Of a DNA stretch of 45,149 nucleotides, positions 755 to 45,126 are shown in pieces. Origin of the DNA: Planctomycetota bacterium (lineage in GTDB: Bacteria; Planctomycetota; Phycisphaerae; SM23-33); the NCBI GenBank assembly GCA_026693065.1, contig JAPLNA010000025.1, positions 1-45,149 of the forward strand. Direction: 5' to 3'. Numbering within the stretch: position 1 is the stretch's first letter; each line of letters opens with the position of its first letter. The translations under genes and the position numbers were made by a program. Below the pieces are notes generated by a model. The model saw only the letters and a program-made list of their open reading frames with translations. It was not told the origin of the DNA and did no database searches.

Positions 755-2464
755 TCACGACATCAAATCCGCCTGCTGGGGATGAAGAATGTCGCGGAGT
801 TTGGAGAGGGCTTGGATCTCGATCTGGCGGACGCGCTCTTTGGAGATGCCCAGGCTGCGGCCGAGTTGTTCGAGGGTTTTGTGGGGCTGGCCCTGGTCCA
901 GGCCGTAGTGGTCGACGAGGATGGAACGTTCCATGGAGGACAGTTGGGCCAGGACCGAGTCGATGCTCTCGCGGAGCTCGGAGAGGCTGACCTCGGCGGA
1001 GTCGTAGGTGCGGAGGCCCGCGGCGATGTCGAGCACCTCCTCGTGCCCGGTCGAGTAGCGGTCCATCACGTACCGCTCGCGGGGGACGGAGCGGGCGAAG
1101 TTGCGGATGATGGCCCAGGAGGCGTAGGTGCTGAAGCGGTTGCCGCGGGAATAGTCGAATTTTTCGACGGCCTTCATGAGCGACACGTTGCCGTCGCTGA
1201 TGAGCTCGAAGAGCGTCTGCACCCCGCCGACGTGCTTCTTGGCGATCGAGACGACCAGGCGCAGGTTGGCGCGGATGATCTGGTTCTTGACGACGTTGGC
1301 CTGGACGAGGCACTTCTCGATCTGCTTGAGCTTGCCCGTGCGGACGTGGGCGGGGTCGATCTCCTGGCGGAGTTTGTCGCTGCGGTACTTGAGGTAGTTG
1401 TACTTTCGGAAGAGGGCGCGCTCGGCCTCGGGGTTCAGCAGGGGCATCTCATAGAGGGCCTGGAGGTAGGCCGGCAGGCCCACCGGGGGCTTGGGCGGCT
1501 TGGCGCCGGCGCGGGGGGGCCATTCGGCGGCCGGGTCGTTCAGGATCGCGTCGGAGGCGTTCGGCAGGTCGAATTCAGGATTGTGAATATACGTGATCGG
1601 GCGGCTCATGAGCTGCTGCGCCCGCATTTCGTTCACGATGCGGTAGATGCTGCCCCGCGTCCGCCTGCACCGCTGGGCCAGGGACTGGACGGACACCCCG
1701 CGGAGGAAGGCGCGGTAGATGGAGGCCTTCTCCTCTTCGTCGATCTGGGAGAGCAGGTGGGGAAAGATGGCCTGCTCGGGGTTCTCGATATCGTGTCGGC
1801 GGAGGGTGTAGCGGATGGTTTCGACGGCCCGGCCGGTGTGGGCGGCGAGGCGGCGGGCGACGTCGCTGAGGCGGGCCCCGGCCGAGTCGACCATGCGCCG
1901 GGCGCGGCGGATGACGGCGTCCTTTTCCTCGGCGGTCATCTGGGTGAACTGGGAGGAGCGATTGATTTCCTGGCTGCGGGCGGCGACGAAGCGGCGGACG
2001 GAGCTCTCGAGGAAGGCCACGCGCCTCTTGCCGTCAGGGAAGAGCAGGCGGCGTGCGACGAGCCCGCGGTCGCGCCACCGCTGGATGGTCTTGCCCGAGA
2101 CGTTGAACCGCCGGGTGAGGGCGTCCAGGTCGTGCAGGGGTTCGTCGTAGTCGGTGCTGGCCAACTCGAAGCTGTCGCACAGGTCCAGGATCAGGGCGGG
2201 CAGGTCTCGCTTGAGGCTCGCGCCGCTCAGGAGGGAATCGGGCAGCCCGTTGTTGCCGGGGTGGTATCCCGTCAGGCGGAAGACGATGAATTCGTAGGGA
2301 TACTCGCGGGTGTCGACGAGGACTTCGAGGAGGGCTTCCGCCGAGTCAATATAGCCCTTACGTAACCGAACCAGACCCGCGCCCAGCTCGGCTGCCAGCT
2401 CCGCCATGACTTTGTTGGCGTAGGCACGCATGGCATGTATGGTAGGCAAGGCACGCGCCCCCAT
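755..2464 (-). CDS. Sigma-70 family RNA polymerase sigma factor with N-terminal helix-turn-helix extension
   Basis: A 569-aa protein (numbering from the ATG at 2464). The C-terminal half is a sigma factor: region 2 at about 394-458, with NLRLVVSIAKKHV and the -10 recognition helix around RFSTYASWAIIRNFAR, and region 4 at about 501-561 with the -35 helix LGISKERVRQIEIQAL. Region 3 seems absent, since only about 45 residues separate 2 and 4. The N-terminal half has three helix-turn-helix-like stretches, near 116-160 (MerR-like, FNVSGKTIQRWRDRG), 198-224 and 256-281. It should direct core polymerase to a promoter set, but which one is unknown. It is longer than group 3 sigmas and does not look like the housekeeping factor. 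The start is chosen as the first ATG after a good promoter; ATG 2431 is an alternative. Confidence 0.85.
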   Translation of the reverse strand: MGARALPTIHAMRAYANKVMAELAAELGAGLVRLRKGYIDSAEALLEVLVDTREYPYEFIVFRLTGYHPGNNGLPDSLLSGASLKRDLPALILDLCDSFELASTDYDEPLHDLDALTRRFNVSGKTIQRWRDRGLVARRLLFPDGKRRVAFLESSVRRFVAARSQEINRSSQFTQMTAEEKDAVIRRARRMVDSAGARLSDVARRLAAHTGRAVETIRYTLRRHDIENPEQAIFPHLLSQIDEEEKASIYRAFLRGVSVQSLAQRCRRTRGSIYRIVNEMRAQQLMSRPITYIHNPEFDLPNASDAILNDPAAEWPPRAGAKPPKPPVGLPAYLQALYEMPLLNPEAERALFRKYNYLKYRSDKLRQEIDPAHVRTGKLKQIEKCLVQANVVKNQIIRANLRLVVSIAKKHVGGVQTLFELISDGNVSLMKAVEKFDYSRGNRFSTYASWAIIRNFARSVPRERYVMDRYSTGHEEVLDIAAGLRTYDSAEVSLSELRESIDSVLAQLSSMERSILVDHYGLDQGQPHKTLEQLGRSLGISKERVRQIEIQALSKLRDILHPQQADLMS

Positions 2465-2496: not shown

Positions 2497-2525
2497 AGTA
2501 TCCCCGAGGGCCGAAAAGCACGCAA
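2497..2525 (-). promoter_or_regulatory. Putative sigma-70 promoter of the sigma-factor gene
   Basis: On the minus strand TTGCGT is followed by exactly 17 bases and then GATACT. The -10 box is about 33 bp upstream of the proposed ATG at 2464. Position and spacing are good; the hexamers match consensus only partly. Confidence 0.5.
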
Positions 2526-2646: not shown

Positions 2647-4662
2647 TTACTTGATCGCCTTGAGCCTCTCCCGCAGAAGCAGGGCGGGGGCGAGGAAAGG
2701 CGACTCGGTGCGGTCTTCATTTCCGCCGGCCCCCTTCAGGGCGTTGTTGACGGCGGCGGCGGCGGCGTCGCGGGCCTTGTTCATGCCATCGGTGTTCTGC
2801 TTGGCGAGGTCGCCCTCGAGGGCCTGCCGCCCGGCCCGCAGTTGGTAGGCCTTTTCCCAGGCGAGCCCGGCCAGGGTGTAGCCGGCCCATCGCACCTTGG
2901 TTTCGGTGGTGGCCTGGACGGCCTGGTCGAACCGCGCGGCGGCCTCTTCGCACTGCTTGGCCGCCTGATCCCGCCATTCGTTGGCGCCCGCAAGGGCCTG
3001 GTCGTCGGCCGGGGCGCTGGCCGGGCTACTGGCCGGGCTGCTGGCCGGCACGTGAGCGACAGCCGCCTCGGGGGTCAGCGAGTCCTTGGCCATCCGCTCG
3101 AGGTTCTTAGCCGGCTCGCTGTCGGGCAAGAGCTGGTTGACGCGGTCCCTGAGGGCCCGAACCTGCTCGGCCAGGAGGATGCCCTCGAGGGCCAGCGAGG
3201 CCTTAGCCATCCGGGCGACGCCCTGGTCGAGGTTGGCCTGAGCCTTCATCTGCCCATCGGCGTCTTCGCCGTCGGCGGGGATCGCGGCGTCCAAGGCCTT
3301 CTGGGCCTCGACGAGGGCCTCGCGGGCCTGGCCTTGGGCGACCATCACGCCGGCGACGAACACGGCCGGCCCGGCGTTCGCGGGGGCCTGCTTGACCGCC
3401 GGCGCCACGGGGGCCGGCGCCGAGGCCGGTTCGGACGTCGCCGCGGCGGCCGGGGCTTTCTCGGGCGCCGCGGCTTCGGCACGCTTCTCCGACGCCGGCA
3501 CCACGGGGTGTTCCTTGTCGCTCAGCCAGCCGGCCGCGTCGGCCAGCACCGTCGCCAGCTCGGCCTGCCGGTCCTTGGTCTGGGCGGCGAGCTCGGCGAG
3601 TCGCTTGTCGGCACTGGCCACGGCCTCGTCGCGCTGGGCCTGGGTCGTCAGGTCCCGCGCCAGGTCGGCGGCCACGCCGGCCTCTTGGATCTTCAGTTCG
3701 GCAATCTCGTTTTGTGCGTAGGCGAGTTTCGTTTCGAGTGCTTCGGCGTCGACGATGGACTTGCTGGCGGCCTTGTCCTTCTCGATGGCCTTGAGGGTGG
3801 TTTCGGCGGCCCCCTGCCCTGTCCCGGCAGCGCCGGCGGCCTTCTCCTCGTTGGCCTCTTTCCGCAGCCTGTCGCCGGTTTCCTGGGCGTCCTTGACCTG
3901 CTGCCGCAGCGTGGCGGCGGCAGACTCGGCGGCTTCCCGCTTGGTCTTCAGGTCTTCCTGGAGGGTCTTGGAGTCCGCGTTCAACTTCGGGTCCACGCCC
4001 TTGGCGATCTTGTCCTTGTACTGGCGGTAGTAGTCGGCTTGCTCGAGTTGCCAGGCGATGGCGTCGAGGCAAGCGGCGGCCTGGGCGAGCTGCCCGCGGA
4101 GTTCAACCCCCGCCAGCGCCGCCTGCCGGGCGTATCCCCGCCCCGTCAGCAGCCAGGCCATCCCCAGTTTCGCCTTCGCCAGGGCCACCGTCTTGGGGGT
4201 GCCCTTAGCCTCGTTGGCGTCCAGGGCGGCCTGCAGTTGCGTCCGGGCGGCGGCCAGCTTCGTCATGGCCGCGGGGTTCACGGTCGGGGCGGTCATCAGG
4301 CGATACGGCATCTTGCCGGCCTCGATGAACCCCTTCCACTTGGCATCCTGGGCCGTCCGCTGCTCCTCGGTCAACTGCGAGGCAAGCAGGTAGGGGATCG
4401 GGTCTTCGGGAAGGGCGGCGGGCAGGTCCTTGGCCCACGGGCCATGTTTGGGCGAGCCGTCCTTCGGGAGGAACTCGGAGGTCGGGTTGCCCAGAAGGCT
4501 CTCGGCGGCGGCGAGATTCTTGCCGGCCTGGTCGACGGCACTCATCAGGGCCTTGTCGGCAAGGCGGCTGGAGTTCTCCGGCCAGAATCGCAGGCCGGCC
4601 AATACGACCAGGGCCACGGCGACGCTGACGGCCACCACGATGATCGCCTTCTTGTTCTCCAC
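2647..4662 (-). CDS. Membrane-anchored Ala-rich coiled-coil protein, 671 aa
   Basis: Function not recognised. One hydrophobic helix (about residues 6-26, AIIVVAVSVAVALVVLAGL) follows a Lys-rich N-terminus, so the protein is probably anchored in the membrane with a large extracytoplasmic part. The rest is very rich in Ala, Glu, Lys and Gln, with long helical or coiled-coil stretches near 200-380, interrupted by Pro/Ala/Ser linkers near 400-440 and 540-560. Such layouts occur in TPR-like or periplasm-spanning proteins, but I see no diagnostic motif. The GTG start at 4662 is preferred over the ATG at 4686 because AAGGAG lies six bases upstream of the GTG. It is the last of a run of minus-strand envelope genes. 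Confidence 0.75.
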   Translation of the reverse strand: MENKKAIIVVAVSVAVALVVLAGLRFWPENSSRLADKALMSAVDQAGKNLAAAESLLGNPTSEFLPKDGSPKHGPWAKDLPAALPEDPIPYLLASQLTEEQRTAQDAKWKGFIEAGKMPYRLMTAPTVNPAAMTKLAAARTQLQAALDANEAKGTPKTVALAKAKLGMAWLLTGRGYARQAALAGVELRGQLAQAAACLDAIAWQLEQADYYRQYKDKIAKGVDPKLNADSKTLQEDLKTKREAAESAAATLRQQVKDAQETGDRLRKEANEEKAAGAAGTGQGAAETTLKAIEKDKAASKSIVDAEALETKLAYAQNEIAELKIQEAGVAADLARDLTTQAQRDEAVASADKRLAELAAQTKDRQAELATVLADAAGWLSDKEHPVVPASEKRAEAAAPEKAPAAAATSEPASAPAPVAPAVKQAPANAGPAVFVAGVMVAQGQAREALVEAQKALDAAIPADGEDADGQMKAQANLDQGVARMAKASLALEGILLAEQVRALRDRVNQLLPDSEPAKNLERMAKDSLTPEAAVAHVPASSPASSPASAPADDQALAGANEWRDQAAKQCEEAAARFDQAVQATTETKVRWAGYTLAGLAWEKAYQLRAGRQALEGDLAKQNTDGMNKARDAAAAAVNNALKGAGGNEDRTESPFLAPALLLRERLKAIK

Positions 4663-4798
4663 GGCGCACTCCTTGTTCGCCCGCATCGGGCAGGGATATC
4701 GGGCGGGGCCCGGCCTTCCGTGCCGCCCCGCCGCTACGTGTTCTTACCACGATCGCATTCGGTTTGCAAGTCTCACAATGCCATCCGTCGGCGGCATC

Positions 4799-5293
4799 TC
4801 AGGCGGCCTCGGGGGGCGCGGGCGGGAAGACCGCCGCCAGAAGCTTCACCGCCCGCTCAATCACGGGCATGCTCACTCCCCCCTGCGCCATCGGACAGGC
4901 CAGCACCAGCACCTGGCGTCGGGCCCCGATGCTGCCTCCGCCCCGCCCGAAGTCGTCCAGCTCGCCGGCCAACGCCACCACGTACGACCGCGCCTCCCGC
5001 GCCGGGCCGTGACCGCCTTCGCAGTGAAAGTCAAACGTCCGGAACGGCCAGCCCCCCACCGTCCCCGTCGTGACGTTCCGCACGCGCGGGCTGTGCCCGA
5101 TGCCGAAGAAAACGAAATCGCCCAGCCGTCCGGGCAGATCGAGGGAGTCTTCCTTCTCGAAGCGGAACCCCAGGTCGAGGGCCTGTCGGACCAGGCGGCG
5201 TGCGCGGCGAGACTGTGCCAGCCCGAGCCCGACGAAATACGCCACCGCTCCCGCCAGAACGGTCCCCAGCAGCCATGGCCAAGTGTTCTCCAC
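4799..5293 (-). CDS. Hypothetical single-span membrane protein, 164 aa
   Basis: The N-terminal 27 residues form a membrane helix (WLLGTVLAGAVAYFVGLGLA) followed by a basic cluster (QSRRARRLVRQ), which predicts a cytoplasmic soluble domain. That domain (about residues 28-160) contains FRFEKEDSLDLPGRLGDF and then a beta-rich GTVGGWPFRTFDFHCEGG segment. I do not recognise the family. The start is GTG with only a weak purine-rich site. It lies 42 bp downstream of the CX4CH protein gene and may be in the same transcript. Confidence 0.65.
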   Translation of the reverse strand: MENTWPWLLGTVLAGAVAYFVGLGLAQSRRARRLVRQALDLGFRFEKEDSLDLPGRLGDFVFFGIGHSPRVRNVTTGTVGGWPFRTFDFHCEGGHGPAREARSYVVALAGELDDFGRGGGSIGARRQVLVLACPMAQGGVSMPVIERAVKLLAAVFPPAPPEAA

Positions 5294-5335: not shown

Positions 5336-6682
5336 TCAGGGAGCGCCGCTCGCGGCGCCGGGGTCGGCGGGCTTTTCCGGGGGCGCCGGGGCGCCCGTGT
5401 CGGGGCCCGGCTCGGGCTGGGTCTCGGGGACCTTGTCGGACCCATCGTCCTTCGTGTCGCCGCCGCTGCCCCCCAGGGGCTTGGCCGGCTGAAGAACGCC
5501 CTCCAGCGAGCCGCCGAAATCCAACTTCACCCCTTCCGGGGCCGTATAGTCCAGCGACAGGTCGCCGCGATCCTTCCGCAGCGAACTGATCCACCGCAGC
5601 ACGTCCTGGTACGCCCCGTCGCCCGTGTTCTTGTACAACGGGAGCCAGCCCTTGACCTTCGCGTGCCGCAACTGCCCGTCCTTGGGCGGCAAATCGTTGG
5701 GAAGCCCGTATTGCAGCAGCAGCGACCGCTCCGGCTCGTTCCGGTCGATCAGCCGATCGCCGGTTTTGCCGACCATGCCGTCCAGCAGGATGAAGTTCGT
5801 GTACGCCGCCGCCGCCCCGGCGTCGGGACGATTGACCAGCCGGATGACGCCGTTGAGTTTCGCTCCGCCGTGGCACTCACGGCTGCCGCATCGGAGGGCC
5901 ACCCGCGTCCAGACCTTCTCTCGCATCCGCACGATGACCCGGGGGTCGCTCTTGACGGCGACGTCCTTCAGGATGTCGGCGGCGTCGGCGGTGCCGGCGA
6001 CGGCGTCGCGGATCCGGACGGCCCTGGCGGCCGGCGTCAGGGCCTGGAACCGCTGCAAGGCCTTGGCGTCATCGGCGATCTCCTTGCCCAAGGGCGTCTT
6101 GAGGAACCGCTTGACGACGTCGTTGCTGAACACGATGGGCAACTGGTTCTCGTCGGAGGTCAACTCGGAGAGCCTGATCTTCTGAATATCCCCCGGGCCC
6201 GCCAGGGCAATCTCGCCCGGCTTGACCGCCGGTGGCTCGTCCGGCCCGGTCGTGCCCTCCTTGGGACCGACCGAGCCCGTGCCGGTTCCGGCCGTCAGAA
6301 GCTCCAGGAGCTTCTTCGCCTTGGCGTGGTCCTTGTCGATGTCCAGCGCCTCGCGGACTTCCTTCTCGGCGACGCTGAGCTGGTTGCGATCGTAGGCCCA
6401 TTGGCCCACTTTGACGTGGTCGTCGGCGCTCTTGGCGTCGATACCCGCGAGCTTCTGCTTGTACTCCTCCGAGAAGCTCATCACGTCGGTGACCTTGGCG
6501 ACGTCGTCCCTGCTGATCTCCCGCGAGCCGTACTTGCTCTTGACGAGATACCCCCCGGCCGTCTCGCTGACGTCCCCCGTAACGGTCGAACCGTCCTTGA
6601 GGACCAGGGTCTTCATCGCCGCCGGCGCCCACGCGGCGGAAGCCAGAACGATCACGACGCCCATCAACACTCTACCGGCCAT
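5336..6682 (-). CDS. Secreted protein with CX4CH motif, 448 aa
   Basis: A signal peptide is clear (about residues 1-22, ending near WAPAA). It is followed by a short beta-rich module (VLKDGSTVTGDV...REISRDDVAKV), a TPR-like helical stretch (about 85-130) and a larger domain containing CGSRECH at 265-271. A CX4CH signature may bind c-type haem, but only one is present and haem binding is an inference. The C-terminus is a Pro/Glu/Gly-rich disordered tail. The ATG at 6682 is chosen because it begins the signal peptide and has GAGGTG just upstream; the longer ORF start would put coding sequence through the tRNA spacer. The N-terminal module resembles that of the next secreted protein (6947-8089). 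Confidence 0.75.
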   Translation of the reverse strand: MAGRVLMGVVIVLASAAWAPAAMKTLVLKDGSTVTGDVSETAGGYLVKSKYGSREISRDDVAKVTDVMSFSEEYKQKLAGIDAKSADDHVKVGQWAYDRNQLSVAEKEVREALDIDKDHAKAKKLLELLTAGTGTGSVGPKEGTTGPDEPPAVKPGEIALAGPGDIQKIRLSELTSDENQLPIVFSNDVVKRFLKTPLGKEIADDAKALQRFQALTPAARAVRIRDAVAGTADAADILKDVAVKSDPRVIVRMREKVWTRVALRCGSRECHGGAKLNGVIRLVNRPDAGAAAAYTNFILLDGMVGKTGDRLIDRNEPERSLLLQYGLPNDLPPKDGQLRHAKVKGWLPLYKNTGDGAYQDVLRWISSLRKDRGDLSLDYTAPEGVKLDFGGSLEGVLQPAKPLGGSGGDTKDDGSDKVPETQPEPGPDTGAPAPPEKPADPGAASGAP

Positions 6683-6788
6683 AGTACACCTCGCATTGCA
6701 GAGACTGGGATATCTCTCTATGAGTCGGCCATTCGCGCCGGGCCCATCGAGCAAATCTTTCGCATGCTCCCGTGGGCCCACAGGGCAC

Positions 6789-12783: not shown

Positions 12784-13830
12784 TTAGTCTTTCGCCGGCT
12801 CGGCGGCCTCGGGCACCTTCACGTCCATGCCCAGGGTCATGCCGATGTCTTCCAGCTTCCGCTTGACCTCGCGGAGGCTGGTCTTGCCGAAGCTGCGGAT
12901 CTTGAGCAGTTCGGCCTCGGAGAGGCTCACCAGTTGCCCGACGGTTTCGATCCGGGCGGCTTCCAGGCAGTTGCTCGACCGGACGGACAGTTCCAGCTCG
13001 TGGACCGGCATGGAGAGTTTCTTCTGGAGTTCCAGGTCCACTATGGAGAGTTTCTTCTGCAGTTCCAGGTCCACTTCCTGCTGGCGGTCGGAGACGCCGG
13101 CCTCGATCACCTGCTCGCCGACCTCGAAGTACTGCACGAACGGGTTGAGGTGCTTGCGGAGGATCTTGGCGGCCTCGACCATCGCCATTTCGGGGGTGAT
13201 GGTGCCGTTGGTCCAGATTTCCATGACGAGGCGGTCGAAGTTGGTTCGCTGCCCGACGCGGGTGTCCTCGGTGTGGTAGCGAACGCGGGTGACGGGGCTG
13301 AAGGCCGCGTCCACGAAGATCCGCCCGTGCTCCTGGTCGGCCTCGTCGTCGATCATGTCTTCGGCGGGCAGGTAGCCTCGCCCGGTCTGGACGACCATTT
13401 CCATGTCGAACGGGGCATTGTCCGTCAGGGTGGCCAGGACCATGTCGCCGTTGATGATCTCGATGCTCGGATCGACCTCGATCATGTCGGCGGTGACGGG
13501 GCCCTTGACCTCGCTGTGAACTCGCATCAGCCGCGTGCCGGGCTGATGGGCCTTGAGCACGAGACTCTTGACGTTCAGAACGATGTCGGTCACGTCTTCC
13601 ATCACGCCGGGGATGGCCGTGAATTCATGATCGGCCTTGCCGATCCGAATGCTGGTAACGGCCGCCCCTTCGAGGCTGCTGAGCAGAATGCGCCGAAGGG
13701 AGTTGCCGACCGTCGTGCCGAACCCGCGTTCGAAGGGCTCGACGACGAAGCGCCCGTATCGGGGCGTAGACACGGCCTGATCGTTCACCACTCTCGTGGG
13801 CAGTTCCAGACCTCGCCACCTGACTCGCAT
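12784..13830 (-). CDS. rpoA: DNA-directed RNA polymerase subunit alpha, with duplicated linker
   Basis: A 348-aa alpha subunit. The N-terminal domain (about 1-235) has the dimerisation and beta-contact regions (GFGTTVGNSLRRILLSSLEG, 36-55). The C-terminal domain (about 276-348) has the helix-hairpin-helix that binds UP elements and activators (LLKIRSFGKTSLREVKRKL). The linker between them holds an 11-residue direct repeat, VDLELQKKLSI (253-263) and VDLELQKKLSM (264-274), encoded by a 33-nt tandem duplication with one mismatch. The reading frame is kept, so the effect would be a longer, probably helical linker. It lies between rpsD and rplQ, as in most bacteria. Confidence 0.98.
   Translation of the reverse strand: MRVRWRGLELPTRVVNDQAVSTPRYGRFVVEPFERGFGTTVGNSLRRILLSSLEGAAVTSIRIGKADHEFTAIPGVMEDVTDIVLNVKSLVLKAHQPGTRLMRVHSEVKGPVTADMIEVDPSIEIINGDMVLATLTDNAPFDMEMVVQTGRGYLPAEDMIDDEADQEHGRIFVDAAFSPVTRVRYHTEDTRVGQRTNFDRLVMEIWTNGTITPEMAMVEAAKILRKHLNPFVQYFEVGEQVIEAGVSDRQQEVDLELQKKLSIVDLELQKKLSMPVHELELSVRSSNCLEAARIETVGQLVSLSEAELLKIRSFGKTSLREVKRKLEDIGMTLGMDVKVPEAAEPAKD
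13010..13075 (-). repeat. 33-nt in-frame tandem duplication in rpoA
   Basis: Copies at 13010-13042 and 13043-13075 are identical except for one G/C difference (TTCTGGAG versus TTCTGCAG). They encode the 11-aa repeat in the alpha interdomain linker. Confidence 0.95.
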
Positions 13831-31280: not shown

Positions 31281-34200
31281 TCAATCCAATCCCAGCAACG
31301 CCTGGGCCGCCGCGGACTTCTGGTCGGCCTCGCTGATCTCCTCGCTCGACAGGCCGAACAGCTCGCCCAGTTCCACGTTCCGCTTCACCCGCATGTTCAC
31401 GTACGGGTGGAAGCTCGTGCCGGCCGGAATCAGGTGGCCCAGGATCACGTTTTCCTTCAGCCCGATCAGGTTGTCAATCTTGCCGGCCAGCGAGGCCTCG
31501 GTAAAGACCTTCGTGCTTTCCTGGAAGCTCGCCGCCGACAGGAAGCTCTCCGACTGCAGCGAGGCCTTCGTGATGCCCAGCAGCAGCGTCTTGGCGGTCG
31601 CCGGCTTGGCGCGGGACGTCTTGGCGGGCTGGCCGCCCTTGGTCTCGGCTTCCATGTTGGCCCGCTCGACGTCGTCCTTCGAGACGATCTCGCCGGCCTT
31701 CAATCCGGTGTCGCCCGGGTCCACGACCTTCAACGACCCGGCAACCCGCTTATTCTCCTCGATAAACAGCGTTCTGTCAACCACATCTCCCGGCAGCAAC
31801 TCCGTGTCGCCGATGCTGTCCACCATGACCCGGCGCAGCATGCGGGAGAGAATGATCTCCATGTGCTTATCATTGATGTTCTGCCCCTGGCCGCGGTAGA
31901 CGCTCTGGACCTCGCCCAGGAGGTATTCCTGCAGCTTCTCCTCGCCGCGAATGGCCAGAATGTCGTGCAGAACCAGCGGGCCTTCCGTCAGCGGGTCGCC
32001 CGCTTCCACGTAGTCGCCCGTGTGAACCAGCAGGTGCTGGTCGTGCGGCACGTGGTGCTCGCGCTCCATGCCCGAGTCGCTCCGGACGATGATCGTCATC
32101 TTGCCGCGACGCTTGTCCGTCCGCAGTTCCACGCGCCCGGAAATCTCCGCCATCGCGGCCGGGTCCTTCGGCTTGCGGGCCTCGAACACTTCCGTCACGC
32201 GGGGCAGGCCCCCCGTGATGTCCTGCGTGCCCGTCACCTCGCGAGGCTGGCGGGCGAGCAGTTCGCCGGGCTTGACCTGCTGGCCTTCCTCCACCTCGAT
32301 ACGAGCCTTCGCGGGCAGGTAGTGGAAGTCCAAAATGTGACCGGCCTTGTCCTCGATCTCGATTCGCGGGTGCTTCTCGCCCTTGTGCTCGATGACGACG
32401 TACCGCTGGCTGACGCCGCGGGCACGGGTGCCTTCGGCCTCGATGCGGACGGTTTCGCCTTCCTCGATGTCGCGGAAGCGGACGCTGCCGGCGGCCTCGG
32501 CCAGGATCGGCACCCGGTGCGGGTCCCACGTGGCCATCCGCTCGCCGGGCTTGACCTTCCCGCCTTCCTTCACCGCCACGATCGCACCGTAGGGAACCTT
32601 GTACTTCTCCAGCTCGCGGTTCTTCTCGTCCATGATCGCCAGTTCGCCGTTGCGCTTCAGGGCGATCATTCGCTTGCCGGCCTCGGTGCTCACCTCGACG
32701 ACGTTCAGCTCGCGGTAGGCCACCGTGCCGCCGGCCGTCGCGAGAATTTCCGACTCGACCACCGCGCGGGTAGCAACACCGCCGGTGTGGAACGTACGCA
32801 TGGTCAACTGCGTGCCCGGCTCGCCGATCGACTGGGCGGCGATGATCCCCACCGCCATGCCCTCTTCCACCAGCTTGCCGGTCGAGAGGTCCATGCCGTA
32901 GCAGCGGGCGCAGATGCCCAGCGGGCTTTCGCACGTCAGGGCGCTGCGGACGCGAATGCTCTCGACGCCCAGGTCTTCGATCTTGCGGGCCATCGCCTCC
33001 GAAATGATCTGGTCTTCCTTCACGATCATCTCGTCGGTGATGGGGTTGACGAGGTTCTCGCGGGCGATGCGCCCCTTGAGCATCTCACGCAGGGGCACGT
33101 CCACCTGCGCGCCCGTGTAGATCCGGGCGCCGTGCGTGGACGAGAAGTATTCCAGCACCGTCAGGCCTTCGCGGAAGTTGGCCTTAATGGGGGTTTCGAT
33201 AATCTCGCCGGAGGGCTTGGTCATCAGGCCACGCATGCCGGCCAACTGGCGGATCTGGTCGACGTTGCCGCGGGCGTTGGAGTGCAGCATCAGCCAGACC
33301 GGGTTCAGGTAGTTCGGGTCGTCCTTGCGCTGGTCGCCCTTGAGGGCTTCCATGAGGCTTCGCGTGACTTCTTCGCGGGCGTGAATCCACACGTCCACGA
33401 TCTGGTTGTACCGCTCGCCGTCGGTGATGGCGTCGTTCTGGTAGTCGCTCTGGATCTGGTCCACGCGCTTCTGCGCCCGGTCCAGGATCGCCGGCTTGTT
33501 CTCGGGAATCTTCGCGTCGGTAATCCCGAAGCTCAGTCCCGCCAGCGTCGCGTACTTGAACCCCAACGCCTTCATCCGGTCCAGCAGGTCCAGCGTCGAG
33601 GGCTTGCCCAACGCCTGGTAGCAGTCGCTGATGACGCGGTTGGCGTCCTTCTGGCCCAGCGACATGTTGTAGTAGCTCATGCCCTTGGGCAGGATGTCGT
33701 TGAAGATGCACCGCCCCGGCGTCGTCAGGATGCGACCGCGCTCGGGGGCGTACTTCGTCTCTCGCTCCACCACCATCTTCACCGTCGGCATGCGGACGAT
33801 CACCTTCGCGTGCATGCCGATCCGACCCAGCGCGTGGGCGCTGATGGCTTCCTCGGCCGTCGCGAAGATCGGGTATAGCGTACCTTGTTCTCCACTCTTC
33901 GGCACAAGGATTCGCTCATCGAGGAGGTGTTCTGTAATGTGGTCGCGCAGGCTACTCGCCCCTTTGCCGAGGCAGTGGTACTCAAGTCTTTCGCGGAGGC
34001 CACGCTTTCTGCCCGGCTTGACTATGCCTATGTAACCATCATTCACCTTCCCGGTTCTCTTGCTTCGGAATATGTAGATTCCGGGCTTTTCCGGCGCACG
34101 GGACGGGTCATTTGCCCACCCCGACTTACTACCTGCCAATGCGATAGCCTGTTCGAAAAGCTCCTTCTGGCTCGGGCTAGCATTGTTCTTCCACCACTCT

Positions 34201-36011
34201 TTGAAATTAGCAATGCCGTCCGCAGAACGAGCATAGTTATTCCGTGTGTTCCACCGGGGCAGATGGTTCTTTTCCGTCTTGGATGGATCGGGGAACTCGA
34301 TCATCAACCGACCTTCCAAGCACTCGATTTCTTGGGCATCCAAGTCCGGGGTCGCCAAGATCTGGAATTCCAGTTCTTCCTCGATGTACTGATTAAGCTC
34401 CTTCTTCCAGTCGGGCTTCTTTGCGTCCGGGCCGTAAGGGACCTTCTTGACGTCGTCGGTGACGAACGCGCTGCCGCCCTCGGCCGTCAGGTAGTACACG
34501 CCCAGGACGATGTCCTGCATCGGCATCGTGTTGGGAGCGCCGTTGGCGGGCGAGAAGATGTTGTTCGTCGACAGCATGAGCACGTGGGCTTCGGCCTGCG
34601 CCTCGACGGACAGGGGCAGGTGGACGGCCATCTGGTCACCGTCGAAGTCGGCGTTGAAGCCTTTGCAGACCAGCGGGTGAATGCGGATGGCGTTGCCCTC
34701 GACCAGGACGGGCTCGAAGGCCTGGATGCCCATGCGGTGAAGCGTCGGGGCGCGGTTCAGAAGCACCGGGTGCTGGTAGATCACTTCTTCCAGCACGTCC
34801 CAGATTTCCGGCTCGCGGCGTTCGAGCATCCGCTTGGCGGACTTGATCGTGTCGGCCAGGCCGCGTTCCTTCAGCCGCCGGATGATGAACGGCTGGTAGA
34901 GCTCCAGGGCGATCTTCTTGGGCAGTCCGCACTGGTTGAGCCGCAGCTCGGGGCCCACGACGATCACGGACCGGCCCGAGTAGTCCACGCGTTTGCCCAG
35001 CAGGTTTTCGCGGAAGCGCCCCTGCTTGCCCTTGATCATGTCGGTGAGGCTCTTGAGGGGGCGGTTGGCCGTCCCCTGCACCGGGCGGCGGCAGCGGCTG
35101 TTGTCGAACAGGGCGTCGACGGCCTGCTGCAGCATCCGCTTCTCGTTCCGGATAATCACCTCGGGGGCGTTCAGGTCCATCAGCTTCTTCAGCCGGTTGT
35201 TCCGGTTGATGATGCGACGGTACAGGTCGTTCAGGTCGCTCGTGGCGAAGTTGCCGCTCTCCAGCAGCACCAGCGGGCGGAGGTCCGGCGGAATCACCGG
35301 GATCACTTCCATCACCATCCACTCCGGACGGTTGCCCGAAACGCGGATGTTCTCCACCAGCTTGAGCCGCTTGATGAAGTCCTTGCTCTTCTGCTTGCTC
35401 TTGGTCTTGGCCAGGTCGTCCCGTAGGTCGCCGGCGAGCTTTTCCAGCTCGAGCTTCTCGAGCAGAACGCGGATGGCTTCGGCGCCCATCTCGGCCTTGA
35501 AGTCCGTGCCGTACTGCTCGACCGCCGAGCGGTATTCATCCTCGCTGAGCACCTGCTGGTACTTCAGCGGGGTCTGCCCCGGGTCGGTCACGACGTAGTC
35601 CTGGAAGAGGATGACCTTTTCCAGATCGGCGGTCTTCATCGCCAGCAGCGTGCCCAGCCGACTGGGCAGGGCCTTGAAGAACCAGATGTGAACCACCGGA
35701 GCGGCCAGGTTGATGTGCCCCATCCGCTTGCGCCGCACGCGCGAGTGCGTCACCTTCACGCCGCAACGGTCGCAGATGATGCCCTTGTGCTTCGTGCCCT
35801 TATACTTGCCGCACGCGCACTCCCAGTCGCGCTCCGGGCCGAAGATCCGCTCGCAGAACAGCCCGTCCTTCTCCGGGCGGTACGTGCGGTAATTGATCGT
35901 CTCGGGGCGCTTGACCTCCCCGAACGACCAACTGCGGATATCGTTGGGCGAAGCCAACTGGATCCGGACCGACCCGTAATCGTTGATTCGATCGTATACG
36001 CTTTCTGCCAT
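31281..36011 (-). CDS. rpoC: RNA polymerase subunit beta' with a GIY-YIG domain insertion
   Basis: A 1576-aa beta' subunit. The N-terminal zinc site (CACGKY...CDRCG, 65-83), the catalytic NADFDGDQM (453-461), the bridge-helix/trigger-loop block ([25 protein letters not shown]) and the second zinc site ([13 protein letters not shown]) are intact, so the polymerase should work. Between [11 protein letters not shown] (ending at 513) and the beta' sequence resuming near [20 protein letters not shown] (715) lie about 200 extra residues; most bacteria have a short loop here. The second half contains PGIYIF (643-648), YIG (660-662), RERLEYH (R675, H679) and GKGASSL, the order of a GIY-YIG nuclease. 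The frame is continuous on both sides. Hand-counted GC for 33901-34440 is about 54%, against about 67% in adjacent lines. No other rpoC gene part is disturbed. Confidence 0.97.
33873..34440 (-). mobile_element. In-frame GIY-YIG homing-endonuclease-like insert within rpoC
   Basis: The insert spans about residues 524-713 of beta'; exact ends are uncertain. Its composition is Asn/Lys/Trp-rich in places ([20 protein letters not shown]) and GC-poor compared with the host gene. The GIY-YIG part (641-710) aligns in order with the I-TevI type: GIY, 13 residues, YIG, then R-x3-H. The late catalytic Glu and Asn are not certain, so activity is unknown. No intein signals (N-terminal Cys/Ser block, C-terminal HN) are visible. 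Confidence 0.65.
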
Positions 36012-36038
36012 CGTTCGAGCCTCGTAGAAACGTCGACC

Positions 36039-39000
36039 TTAGACAAGCGCCTTCTTTTCCAGTTGTATGTTCAGACCCAGGCCGCGGAGTTCGTTGCACA
36101 GCACGTCGAAGCTGACCGGCGTGCCCGCCTCGAGCGTGTTGGCGCCCTTGACCATGGATTCGTAAATCTTCGTCCGGCCTTCGACGTCGTCGCTCTTGAC
36201 CGTCAGGAGTTCCTGCAGCGTGTAGCTGGCGCCGTAGGCCTCCAGGCCCCAGACTTCCATCTCGCCGAACCGCTGCCCGCCCGTGCGGGCCTTGCCGCCC
36301 AGGGGCTGCTGCGTGATCAGCGAATACGGGCCCGTCGCACGAGCGTGAATCTTCTCGTCCACCAGGTGATGCAGCTTGTTCATGTAAATGAACCCGACGG
36401 TGGCCTTCTGCTCCAACGCCTCGCCCGTCCGCCCGTCCGACAGGATCATCTTCCCGCCGAAGGGCATGTGCTGGAGAATCTCCCGCGTGTCGCCGGCCTG
36501 CTGAACCACGCCCATGTCCGCGCTCCGCACGGCGACGTGCTCGTTGGCTTCCTTGACGACGTCGAAGATCTCCTGCTCCTTGGCTCCGTCAAAGACGGGG
36601 GTGACGGCCTGGAAGCCCAGGATCGCCGCCGCCCAGCCCAGGTGCGTCTCCAGAATCTGACCGAGGTTCATACGCCCGGGCACGCCCAGCGGGTTCAGGC
36701 AGATATCGATCGGCGTGCCGTCGGCCATGAAGGGCATGTCCTCTTCCGGCAGGATGCGGGCGATGACGCCCTTGTTGCCGTGGCGCCCAGCCATCTTGTC
36801 GCCCACGCCCAGCTTTCGCTTGGTGGCGACGCGGACCTTCACCATCTCCAGCACGCCCGAGGGCAACTCGTCGCCGCGCTTCATGTGGGCGAGTTTGCGT
36901 TCGGTCTCGGCCTGCACTTCCTGAATCCGAGGCCAGAACCGTTCGTAGATCGTGTCCACCTGCTCGCGGACGGTGGCGTTGGTGGTCTTGGCCCACTTGG
37001 GGTTGAAGTTTTCGATCTGTTCGACGAGCACGGCCTCGATGTCGCTCTGGGCGACCTTCTGGCGGGTCGTCGGGTCGATCATCGGAGCGCCCAGGACGGC
37101 GTTCATCTCCTCGACCATCTTGGCGAACAGCTCGATCAGGCGCACATTCATCTCGCTGCGGAAGTCCTTCATCCGCTTGGCGAGGTCTTTCTTTTGCTGG
37201 TCGGACATGCTCATCCGGCGGCTGAAACGCCGGGCGTCCACCACCACGCCTTCCTCGCCGGCGGGCAGTTCGAGCGAGTCGTTCTTGACGTCCTCGCCCG
37301 CCCGCCCGAAGATCGCGTGCAGCAGCTTCTCTTCCGGCGACAGTTCGCTCTTGCTCTTGGGGCTGACCTTGCCGACCATGATGTCGCCCGGGCCCACCCG
37401 CGTGCCGATCCGAACCACGCCGTTCTCGTCCAGGTTCCGCAGCGCCCGCTCGGAGACGTTGGGGATGTCCCGCGTGAACTCCTCGCGGCCGAGCTTCGTC
37501 TCGCGGACTTCCACGTCGTACTCTTCCAGGTGGACGCTCGTGAAGCAGTCGCCCTTGACCAGCCGCTCGCTGATCAGGATGGCGTCCTCGAAGTTGTAGC
37601 CGTCGAAGGGCATGAACGCGACCAGCACGTTACGTCCCAGGGCCAGTTCGCCGTGGCTGGTGGCCGAGCCGTCGGCGATCACGTCGCCCTTCTTGACCCG
37701 CTGGCCTTCCTTCACCACGGGCTTCTGGTTCAAGCACGCCCGCTCGTTGAGCTTGTTGAACTTCCGCAGCTTGTACTCGTCGGTGTTGTCGATCACGATC
37801 CGCATGCCGTCGGAGAACGTCAACGTGCCGCCCTTGCGGGCGCGAACCACCATCGACGAGTTCACCGCCACGTGACGCTCCATCCCCGTCGCGACGACGG
37901 GCGGCTCGGTCCGCAGAAGCGGCCCGGCCTGGCGCTGCATGTTGGATCCCATCAGCGCGCGGTTGGCGTCGTCATGCTCCAGGAACGGAATCAGCGCGGC
38001 GGAAATGCCCACCGTCTGCTTGGGCGAAATATCCAGGAACTGCACGTCCTTGCCTTCCACCAGCAGCACGTCCCCGCGGGCGCGGGCCAGCACGTGTTCC
38101 TTGGGCAACTTGTGCGTCTGCCCGCGGGTGGTCGGCTCGAGGGAGTCCGGCGGGGCCAGCACGGCCTCGATCTCTTCGTCCGCCCGCAGGGCGACCACTT
38201 CTTCCGTCACCAGGCCCTTGGACACCCGCCGGTACGGCGTGGTGATGAACCCGTACTCATCCACGCCGGCGTAAATGCCCAGCGAGGTGATCAGGCCGAT
38301 GTTCTGGCCTTCCGGGGTTTCGATCGGGCAGATGCGGCCGTAATGGCTGATGTGCACGTCGCGCGTCTCGAAGCCCGCCCGCTTGCGGTTCAACCCGCCC
38401 GGGCCCAGGGCCGACAGGCGACGCTCGTGCGCCAGTTGGCTCAACGGATTCTGCTGGTCGACGACCTGGCTCAGTTCGCCCCGGCCGAAGAAGAACTCCA
38501 TCGCCGAGGAAATGCTCTTGGAATTCACCAGTTCGGAGATCTTCGAGAGCTCCTCGGCGTCCTTGAGGCTCATGCGTTCCTGCACGGTGCGGCGGAGCTT
38601 CAGGAAGCCCTTGCGCAGCTCTTCGCTGGCCAGCTCGTCGATGGTGCGGAGGCGGCGGTTGCCCAGGTGGTCGATGTCGTCCACCACGCCCTGGCCGTCT
38701 CGCAGGTGCATGATGTACTTGAGCGTCTGGATCATGTCCTCGACGTGGATGACCATTTCCTTTTCAGGAATCTCGAGGTTGAACTTGCGGTTCAGGCGGA
38801 ACCGCCCCACCTTGCCCAGGCGGTAGCGGTTCTCGTCGTAGAACTTCTCGTCGAAGAGGGTCTTGGCCTTCTCCAACTGCGGCGGGTTGCCCGGACGCAG
38901 CCGTTTGTAAATGTTGATCAGCGCCTCGTCGTGCGAGTGCGTCGGGTCTTCCGACAGGGTGTTGAGCACCAGCGGATCGACCGCGCCGTCGACGATCAGC

Positions 39001-39803
39001 ACCTTCTTGATCGTGGAAGACTGGATGCGGGTGAGGGTCTCGCCGATCTGCCCGCCGGCGGGAACCAGTTCCTCGCCGCTGTCGGGGTCGATGACGGCCT
39101 CGCCCACGTACGTCTGGGGCTCCAACTGCGAGACGCCCACGCTCTTGACCGGGTAAAACTCCTCGATCAGGCTCTTGTCCGTCCCGAACTTCTCGCTCAT
39201 CGCCCGCAGGAACGTCGTCGCGGGGATCTTGCTCGACTGGTCGATCCACATCGTCAGCGAGTCTTTCTTCGTGACGGCGATCTCGATCCAGCTTCCGCGT
39301 TCGGGGATCAGCCTGGCCCCGTGCAGCGGGCGGTCAGACTCCTGCATCTTCACCGAGAAGTCCACGCCGGGGGATCGGTGCAACTGCGAAACGATCACGC
39401 GTTCGGCGCCGTTGATGATGAACGCGCCCCCGCCGATCATCTTGGGGATTTCGCCCAGGTAAATGCTTTCCTCGACGACATCCTTGGTTTCCTTGCGGAC
39501 CAGGCGGCAGCGGATGCGGAAGGGAAGCCCGTACGTCAGACGCAGGTCGCGGCACTCCTGCACGTCGTACCGCGGATCGTCCATTTCGTAATAGAGATAC
39601 TCCAACTTCGTCCGCTCGTCGTAGCTGACGATGGGGAAGATTTCCCGCAGCAGGGCCTCGAGCCCCTCGTGCTTTCGCCTCGTGGGTTCGGCGTCGGCCT
39701 GCAGGAACCGCTCGTAGCTCTTGACCTGGATTTCGACCAGGTCGGGGACGGGGATGGCGTCACCGACTTTCGAGAAATCGCGGATTCGGTCCATTCGCAG
39801 CAT
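36039..39803 (-). CDS. rpoB: DNA-directed RNA polymerase subunit beta
   Basis: A 1254-aa beta subunit, counted from the ATG at 39803, which has AGAGGTG about seven bases upstream; the ORF track start at 39830 lacks one. The rifampicin pocket reads [26 protein letters not shown], keeping the Asp, His and Ser whose changes usually give resistance. Other conserved blocks are [17 protein letters not shown], the catalytic-site [43 protein letters not shown] and [21 protein letters not shown]. It is 121 bp after rplL, a gap that holds a strong hairpin, and 27 bp before rpoC. Confidence 0.98.
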
Positions 39804-39850
39804 CGTGAGCACCTCTGTCCGTTCGTACAACGTCCGCTGTCACAACTTTG

Positions 39851-43315: not shown

Positions 43316-43372
43316 TCTGTTCTCTCTTCCGGTCTTCGGCGGGCTCTGGCCTCGCCCGCCGCTCGCATTCAC

Positions 43373-43445
<73 letters not shown>

Positions 43446-43558
43446 GTCTGGACCGGCAGTCGCGGGCCTGGAAAAGCCTATGCTCCCGGCTCGTCCAGGC
43501 CCGCGTCTGTCCAGCCGGGCCGCCTGATGGGGAGGGCGCTCCGGCCGAGGCGGTCGTG

Positions 43559-43726
43559 TTATTTCCTCTTGAGTTTATGCTCCGTGTGAGCCCGCGTCCG
43601 TGGGCAGAATTTCTTCAATACCAGCTTGGGCGACCCGCCGGTGACCTTCACCTCGGTGCGGTAATTCAGCTCGCCGCAATCGCTGCACTGGAGCCAGACG
43701 TATTCTCTCGCCTTCGACTTTGCCAT
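43559..43726 (-). CDS. rpmG: Large-subunit ribosomal protein L33
   Basis: This 55-aa gene is missing from the ORF track because of its size. The protein reads AREYVWLQCSDCGELNYRTE, then KLVLKKFCPRTRAHTEHK. The first CxxC knuckle is intact but the second has only one Cys (CPRT instead of CPxC), so zinc binding may be lost. It starts 7 bp after tuf and precedes tRNA-Trp, the standard tuf-rpmG-trnW-secE order. Confidence 0.95.
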   Translation of the reverse strand: MAKSKAREYVWLQCSDCGELNYRTEVKVTGGSPKLVLKKFCPRTRAHTEHKLKRK

Positions 43727-43733
43727 GAAACCC

Positions 43734-44939
<1,206 letters not shown>

Positions 44940-45053
44940 CTGTCGCGCTCCTCTTGCAAAAGCCCGTGAAGACCTTTCCTTGCTGGTTCAGAGTCCGTTT
45001 ATTCTACCGAGCGGCCACGCTCTCGCCGGCGCCGCCGCCTACCAAATTCGACA

Positions 45054-45126
<73 letters not shown>

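Follow-up and report, generated by a model that had tools for sequence, protein, structure and literature searches.

The locus raises the question of how a sigma factor that carries several helix-turn-helix (HTH) units of its own, and apparently no region 3, may select its promoters. The window, i.e. the whole stretch of 45,149 nucleotides analysed here, derives from a Planctomycetota bacterium and encodes this protein near one of its ends. In our reading, which we hold to be reasonably probable, the protein belongs to a planctomycete-specific clade and serves as an alternative sigma factor, in which the sigma function and a DNA-bound activator are joined in one chain.

The gene lies on the minus strand in a single uninterrupted frame, with its stop end at 755 and in-frame ATG codons at 2596, 2464 and 2431. 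The N-termini of its homologs align to the position of the last of these, which is thus probably the true start, while a start at 2464 is also possible and sets the protein length at 558-569 residues. The preliminary description had delimited the open reading frame as 755-2464; the frame stands, yet its start codon is the less likely one in view of the homologs. The features of the window are compiled in Table 1. Autoregulation of the gene was considered and dropped, as the upstream regions show RpoD-like promoters whose excess over chance is weak (8 found upstream of the orthologs vs 3.2 expected at the strictest cut-off).

Table 1. Position of the sigma-factor gene, its encoded domains and related features within the window (aa, residues counted from the ATG at 2431)
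Feature	Position	Strand	Basis or remark
Sigma-factor CDS	755..2431	-	558 aa from ATG 2431; homolog starts, one frame
Candidate RpoD-type promoter, TTGCGT-N17-GATACT	2497..2525	-	sequence; weak enrichment upstream of orthologs
N-terminal domain, aa 1-92	2156..2431	-	helix-strand-helix-strand-helix, slightly acidic, without known family
HTH1, aa 97-160, MerR/BldC-type winged HTH	1952..2143	-	HTH_17, MerR_1, PDB 6ama/6amk
HTH2, aa 165-218, resolvase/HTH_38-like	1778..1939	-	weak HTH_38, profile match to HTH3, predicted structure
HTH3, aa 221-277, Mor/HTH_23/resolvase-like	1601..1771	-	Mor, HTH_23 (above curated cut-off)
Proline-rich linker from HTH3 to sigma core, aa 278-317	1481..1600	-	sequence; pLDDT dip
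Region 1.2 motif, aa 318-345, LPAYLQALYEMPLLNPEAERALFRKYN	1397..1480	-	hhalign to RpoD region 1.2; HrdB/SigA alignment
Sigma region 2, aa 365-452	1076..1339	-	Pfam Sigma70_r2, 1.8e-13
Region 2/4 linker replacing region 3, aa 453-482	986..1075	-	disordered, acidic; pLDDT <50 at 454-480
Sigma region 4, aa 483-548	788..985	-	Pfam Sigma70_r4, 5.3e-14; T/S-K-E-R-V/I-R-Q helix near-invariant
rpoA	12784..13830	-	about 10 kb upstream of sigma gene, same strand
rpoC (31281-36011), rpoB (36039-39830)	31281..39830	-	same strand as sigma gene
tRNA-Trp, tuf (43734-44939), tRNA-Thr(GGT)	43372..45126	-	same strand as sigma gene

From the N- to the C-terminus, the protein comprises an unclassified domain, HTH1, HTH2, HTH3, region 1.2, region 2, a short disordered linker and region 4. 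Regions 2 and 4, both claimed from the outset, lie well above their Pfam cut-offs (50.5 bits vs 24.0 and 51.9 bits vs 24.1, respectively) and are also present in all 63 homologs, which places the protein in the sigma-70 family. Region 3 is absent. The window protein exhibits no match to Pfam Sigma70_r3 down to E=5, and this family is not among the top 25 Pfam families matched by the 63 homologs; the test itself works, since it recovers region 3 in the genome's own RpoD (1.3e-24). An alignment of profiles to 29 planctomycete RpoDs matches regions 2 and 4 and skips the region 3 block (P=4.7e-43). The two approaches thus agree with the earlier claim that region 3 is lacking, and the short gap observed between regions 2 and 4 proves to be a disordered acidic linker. 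The preliminary description mentioned neither the first domain, which is distinct from the HTH units, nor the region 1.2 motif; the latter is recovered by hhalign against RpoD region 1.2 (P=7.9e-8), while Pfam Sigma70_r1_2 gives no match in the window protein.

The residues with which a sigma factor reads its promoter are only partly those of RpoD. The K-E-R-x-R-Q core of region 4.2 is invariant in 63/63 homologs, where planctomycete RpoD carries R-E-R-V-R-Q, and the FSTYA motif of region 2 is conserved in the homologs. In regions 2.3-2.4, the sigma-70 sequence FSTYATWWIRQAIT is represented in this family by FSTYASWAIMKNFA: the second W is replaced by A in 57 of the 63 homologs, the aligned Q by K or R in all of them, and the aligned T by A in 60. 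In sigma-70, the residues Q437 and T440 recognise the base pair at -12, and the two adjoining W residues aid melting. The -35 preference is probably like that of RpoD, since KERxRQ is kept throughout, and the -10 preference is probably changed, since the W, Q and T are replaced. No target promoter or binding site of the sigma factor was found in this analysis.

An AlphaFold2 model built on the 63 aligned homologs gives the full-length protein a mean pLDDT of 89.1, mostly above 90 over the N-terminal 290 residues and below 50 solely at 454-480, between regions 2 and 4; when modelled alone, the N-terminal half adopts identical elements (pLDDT 92.6). All three HTH units proposed earlier are confidently predicted as HTH-like helix arrangements, so that the structural check, in which they might have failed to appear, went in their favour. 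At a pTM of 0.60, the model does not fix how the HTHs and the sigma core are arranged with respect to each other. In the window protein, Pfam reports HTH_23 above its curated cut-off, together with weaker matches to HTH_17, MerR_1 and Mor.

The three segments were also scanned separately with Pfam across 29 homologs, and most of these homologs return HTH1 and HTH3. For HTH1, HTH_17 is matched in 29/29 and MerR_1 in 24/29, in line with the MerR-like segment described initially; this winged HTH, whose wing has two strands in the model, matches only HTH_17 in the window copy itself. Its profile matches PDB 6ama/6amk (E about 4e-4), and by Foldseek it resembles 6ama chain P, i.e. Streptomyces BldC (prob 0.91, TMt 0.65), followed by the HTH of lambda gpNu1 (prob 0.90). 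Foldseek with the whole N-terminal half yields weak matches, none with E<0.001. HTH3 matches Mor in 22/29 homologs and HTH_23 in 14/29, while HTH2 alone is matched weakly, by HTH_38 in just 6/29. The HTH2 profile, however, aligns to HTH3 (hhalign probability 65%, P=5.9e-5), such that the two look like a tandem pair; HTH2 is thus supported weakly by sequence profiles and well by its predicted fold and its likeness to HTH3. The recognition helices keep conserved polar residues, E204 and R207 being invariant in that of HTH2. All three units are basic (median pI over the 63 homologs of 10.8, 9.8 and 10.3 for HTH1, HTH2 and HTH3), and the N-terminal domain is not (5.7); the latter has no Pfam family and no notable PDB profile match.

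The distribution of the architecture, a check suggested together with the original claim, shows it to be conserved as a whole across two planctomycete classes. A profile of the N-terminal part (A3) matches 193/198 genomes of the window's class (E<=1e-5) and 194/199 genomes of a second class (E<=1e-8), in both nearly always once per genome and fused to a sigma core. The five misses in the second class comprise three genomes of one genus (g288) and two very fragmented assemblies. Since the open frames are mostly 550-600 aa, fusion is the rule. In a phylum-wide sample, A3 occurs in 114/392 genomes, mostly of the two classes, with few other planctomycetes. The best 80 loci of a whole-collection scan are nearly all Planctomycetota by title, and the named records among them include Phycisphaerae, Sedimentisphaerales-type, Pirellulales, Planctomycetaceae and Gemmataceae members. 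A mobile-element origin was rejected: scans of 50,697 phage and 72,556 plasmid records gave no match to the N-terminal half, and the tree of 63 members largely follows taxonomy. Within a Pirellulales sub-lineage (L089-L092 and L095), the first domain has been lost and the HTHs and sigma core kept. Two labels look doubtful, namely Candidatus Kuenenia for L089, which groups with Pirellulales, and Actinomycetota for L073.

The mechanism that we favour combines these elements. Regions 1.2, 2 and 4 would place the sigma factor in RNA polymerase, and the ECF-like disordered acidic linker takes the place of region 3; published structures show that in ECF factors the region 2/4 linker is able to fulfil the function of the region 3/4 linker (PMC6372665). 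Without region 3 the usual extended -10 contact would be missing, and the altered region 2.4 would weaken or change the reading of the -10 element. The three N-terminal HTH domains may then supply extra sequence-specific promoter contacts in cis. We infer that they bind DNA, sit on promoters and are needed for initiation. Of the initial suggestion that the protein carries its own regulator and the sigma function in one chain, the architecture is confirmed and conserved, while binding of promoter DNA as a regulator is what we infer.

Which genes such a factor would serve is a separate matter. In the window, a supercluster is arranged on the minus strand (12784-45126) in the order tRNA-Thr, tuf, tRNA-Trp, rpoB, rpoC, secY, rpoA, with the sigma gene downstream. 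In three relatives of the window's family (G587, G617 and G609), rpoA is followed on its own strand by the sigma gene after about 18-30 kb, and in most others the two are on different contigs. Many Pirellulales-type loci have, directly after the sigma gene, tRNA-Thr(TGT), tRNA-Tyr, tRNA-Gly, tRNA-Thr(GGT), tuf, tRNA-Trp, secE, nusG, rplK and rplA, an order which corresponds to the thrU-tufB/secE-nusG/rpl-rpoB arrangement of E. coli. Among one-contig genomes, 13 (families f31 and f72) have the sigma gene 7-11 kb from rpoB, upstream of it and on the same strand; in most others the two lie far apart. Linkage to the RNA polymerase cluster therefore recurs, at opposite ends in different lineages, and is not universal.

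The sigma factor may be one of stress or development with a small regulon unrelated to the ribosomal and RNA polymerase cluster, the linkage being inherited gene order; this we regard as a credible minority view. It concerns the regulon and is compatible with the combined sigma factor and activator. The lack of linkage in many complete genomes of the two classes speaks for it, yet a gene that is retained near-universally, and mostly as one copy, is rather what one expects of a core function than of a niche stress regulator, and the occurrence of the gene in almost every sampled genome of these classes, usually in one copy, suggests that its product is probably a core regulator. A bolder proposal, for which we would claim only a slim chance, is that of a second near-essential sigma factor, which would steer RNA polymerase to tuf, ribosomal protein and RNA polymerase genes by its multi-HTH DNA-reading arm, such that the transcription of growth genes would be split with RpoD.

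The N-terminal domains may, on the other hand, be mainly inhibitory, masking the DNA-binding surfaces of the sigma factor or filling the downstream DNA channel in the manner of region 1.1, with release upon a signal or promoter binding. HTH folds are able to serve protein contacts too, which speaks against the reading favoured above. The N-terminal domains directly precede region 1.2, which is the site of region 1.1 in RpoD, and the first of them is acidic overall. In two genomes of another family it is joined directly to the sigma core of paralogs without HTHs, which indicates that the domains are modular and would also suit an inhibitory part. Its kinship with region 1.1, suggested by the order of elements, was nevertheless rejected, as hhalign gave a probability of 0.1% against 29 planctomycete region 1.1 sequences; moreover, the HTHs are basic and conserve their recognition-helix residues, and a pure plug would need neither. 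Inhibition as the main role is therefore rather unlikely. Least likely is a repressor or BldC-like nucleoid-type factor, whose HTHs would bind operators unrelated to sigma function and whose sigma core is possibly degenerate: the resemblance of HTH1 to BldC, whose binding to direct repeats is cooperative (PMC5859096), speaks for it, yet conservation of the core is strong and extends to the entire KERxRQ helix and to FSTYA in region 2, and nearly all genomes retain the fusion, in open frames of about 550 aa.

Several further elements accompany the gene. Ahead of the sigma start, at a distance of about 50-80 nt, a 5' leader RNA element is conserved in 13 Pirellulales-type loci (L045:4751-4814, L048:5398-5459, L066:7828-7894, L074:3321-3388, L079:3719-3782, L093:7842-7904 and 7 more). 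Its parts are a stem on the outside, a hairpin on the inside (typically GCGA-loop-TCGC) and, on the 3' side, a bulge with GGAA. The outer stems pair better within than between the 13 loci (mean score 14.3 vs 8.7), a value reached by 0/1500 permutations, and the two GGA motifs of the leader recall CsrA sites, which is offered purely as an idea. In 29 loci (e.g. L045:2503-3960), the sigma gene has a divergently transcribed neighbour, whose product of about 430-620 aa begins like a signal peptide; the one tested has no Pfam match. In the window, the genes that immediately precede the sigma gene (2647-4686, a coiled-coil protein, 4799-5293 and 5336-6781) resemble their counterparts in L039-L041, as judged by eye from the protein starts. 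Sedimentisphaerales-type loci carry a 208-aa gene of corrinoid-binding type (GDLHDIGKNL motif), co-directional with the sigma gene and upstream of it (L096:7203-7826, L099:7254-7877 and L147:7734-8354; at a larger distance in L100, L106 and L110). This separate B12-binding gene is real in several such loci, while an apparent fusion of sigma factor and B12-binding protein in L111 was discarded, as its frame crosses a run of N letters, translated as X, i.e. an assembly gap. Apart from rpoA, the window's genome has a second gene (G000:C199:5227-5675) that encodes domains of the RNA polymerase alpha C-terminal type, two in number; it is present in nearly all relatives checked.

In open-licence PMC papers on planctomycete, region-3-less and HTH-fused sigma factors and on SigA paralogs, no description was found of this family, nor of any sigma factor that carries regulator-type DNA-binding domains of its own. 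Planctomycete ECF groups and N-terminal extensions are covered by a review of non-canonical ECFs, from which the term helix-turn-helix is absent. Rhodopirellula baltica RB12251, a 567-aa 'RNA polymerase specialized sigma factor', is repressed under heat, cold and salt (PMC2754498); by length alone it may be an ortholog, but the same paper also calls it rfaY, and it was not used as evidence. Gene regulation is poorly understood in this phylum, in two classes of which the family is near-universal and mostly single-copy; the family suggests a route by which a sigma factor may become promoter-specific with neither region 3 nor a separate activator. In the model species Planctopirus limnophila, inducible systems in common use did not work (PMC11958385), which makes the basic rules of planctomycete promoters worth knowing, and the genetic tools that exist in this species render the prediction directly testable.

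The protein is not a primary sigma factor, because the same genome has a normal, separate RpoD. It lies far below the cut-offs of all specific NCBIfam models, the highest scores being those of the curated RpoD models (at best 136 bits vs a cut-off of 555), while it passes the broad sigma70-ECF model TIGR02937 (92.3 vs 42.9 bits). It shares regions 1.2, 2 and 4 with the primary sigma factors (RpoD/SigA/HrdB; PDB 8k60, 7vpd and 6dcf), which are the best matches of its core in sequence and fold, yet it differs from them in lacking region 3 and a detectable region 1.1, in possessing three HTH domains instead, and in its region 2.4 residues. Like the ECF factors (group 4), it passes from region 2 through a short disordered acidic linker to region 4 without region 3; the retention of region 1.2 sets it apart from them, as does the large N-terminal HTH module. 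The genes beside the sigma gene, examined for an ECF-style anti-sigma factor or equivalent, have no Pfam match. HTH1 is like BldC and other MerR-type HTH proteins in sequence and fold but, unlike the MerR regulators, it is one domain of a sigma factor and is followed by HTH2 and HTH3, without a coiled coil or effector domain. The closest relatives within its own genome are region-3-less paralogs (G000:C177:2451-3269 and G000:C301:12194-13003), which together with L140-L142 apparently make up an entire clade that no curated family represents. These share with it region 2, the linker, region 4 and an LFxKYN helix in front, and they lack the N-terminal HTH module by which the present family is distinguished.
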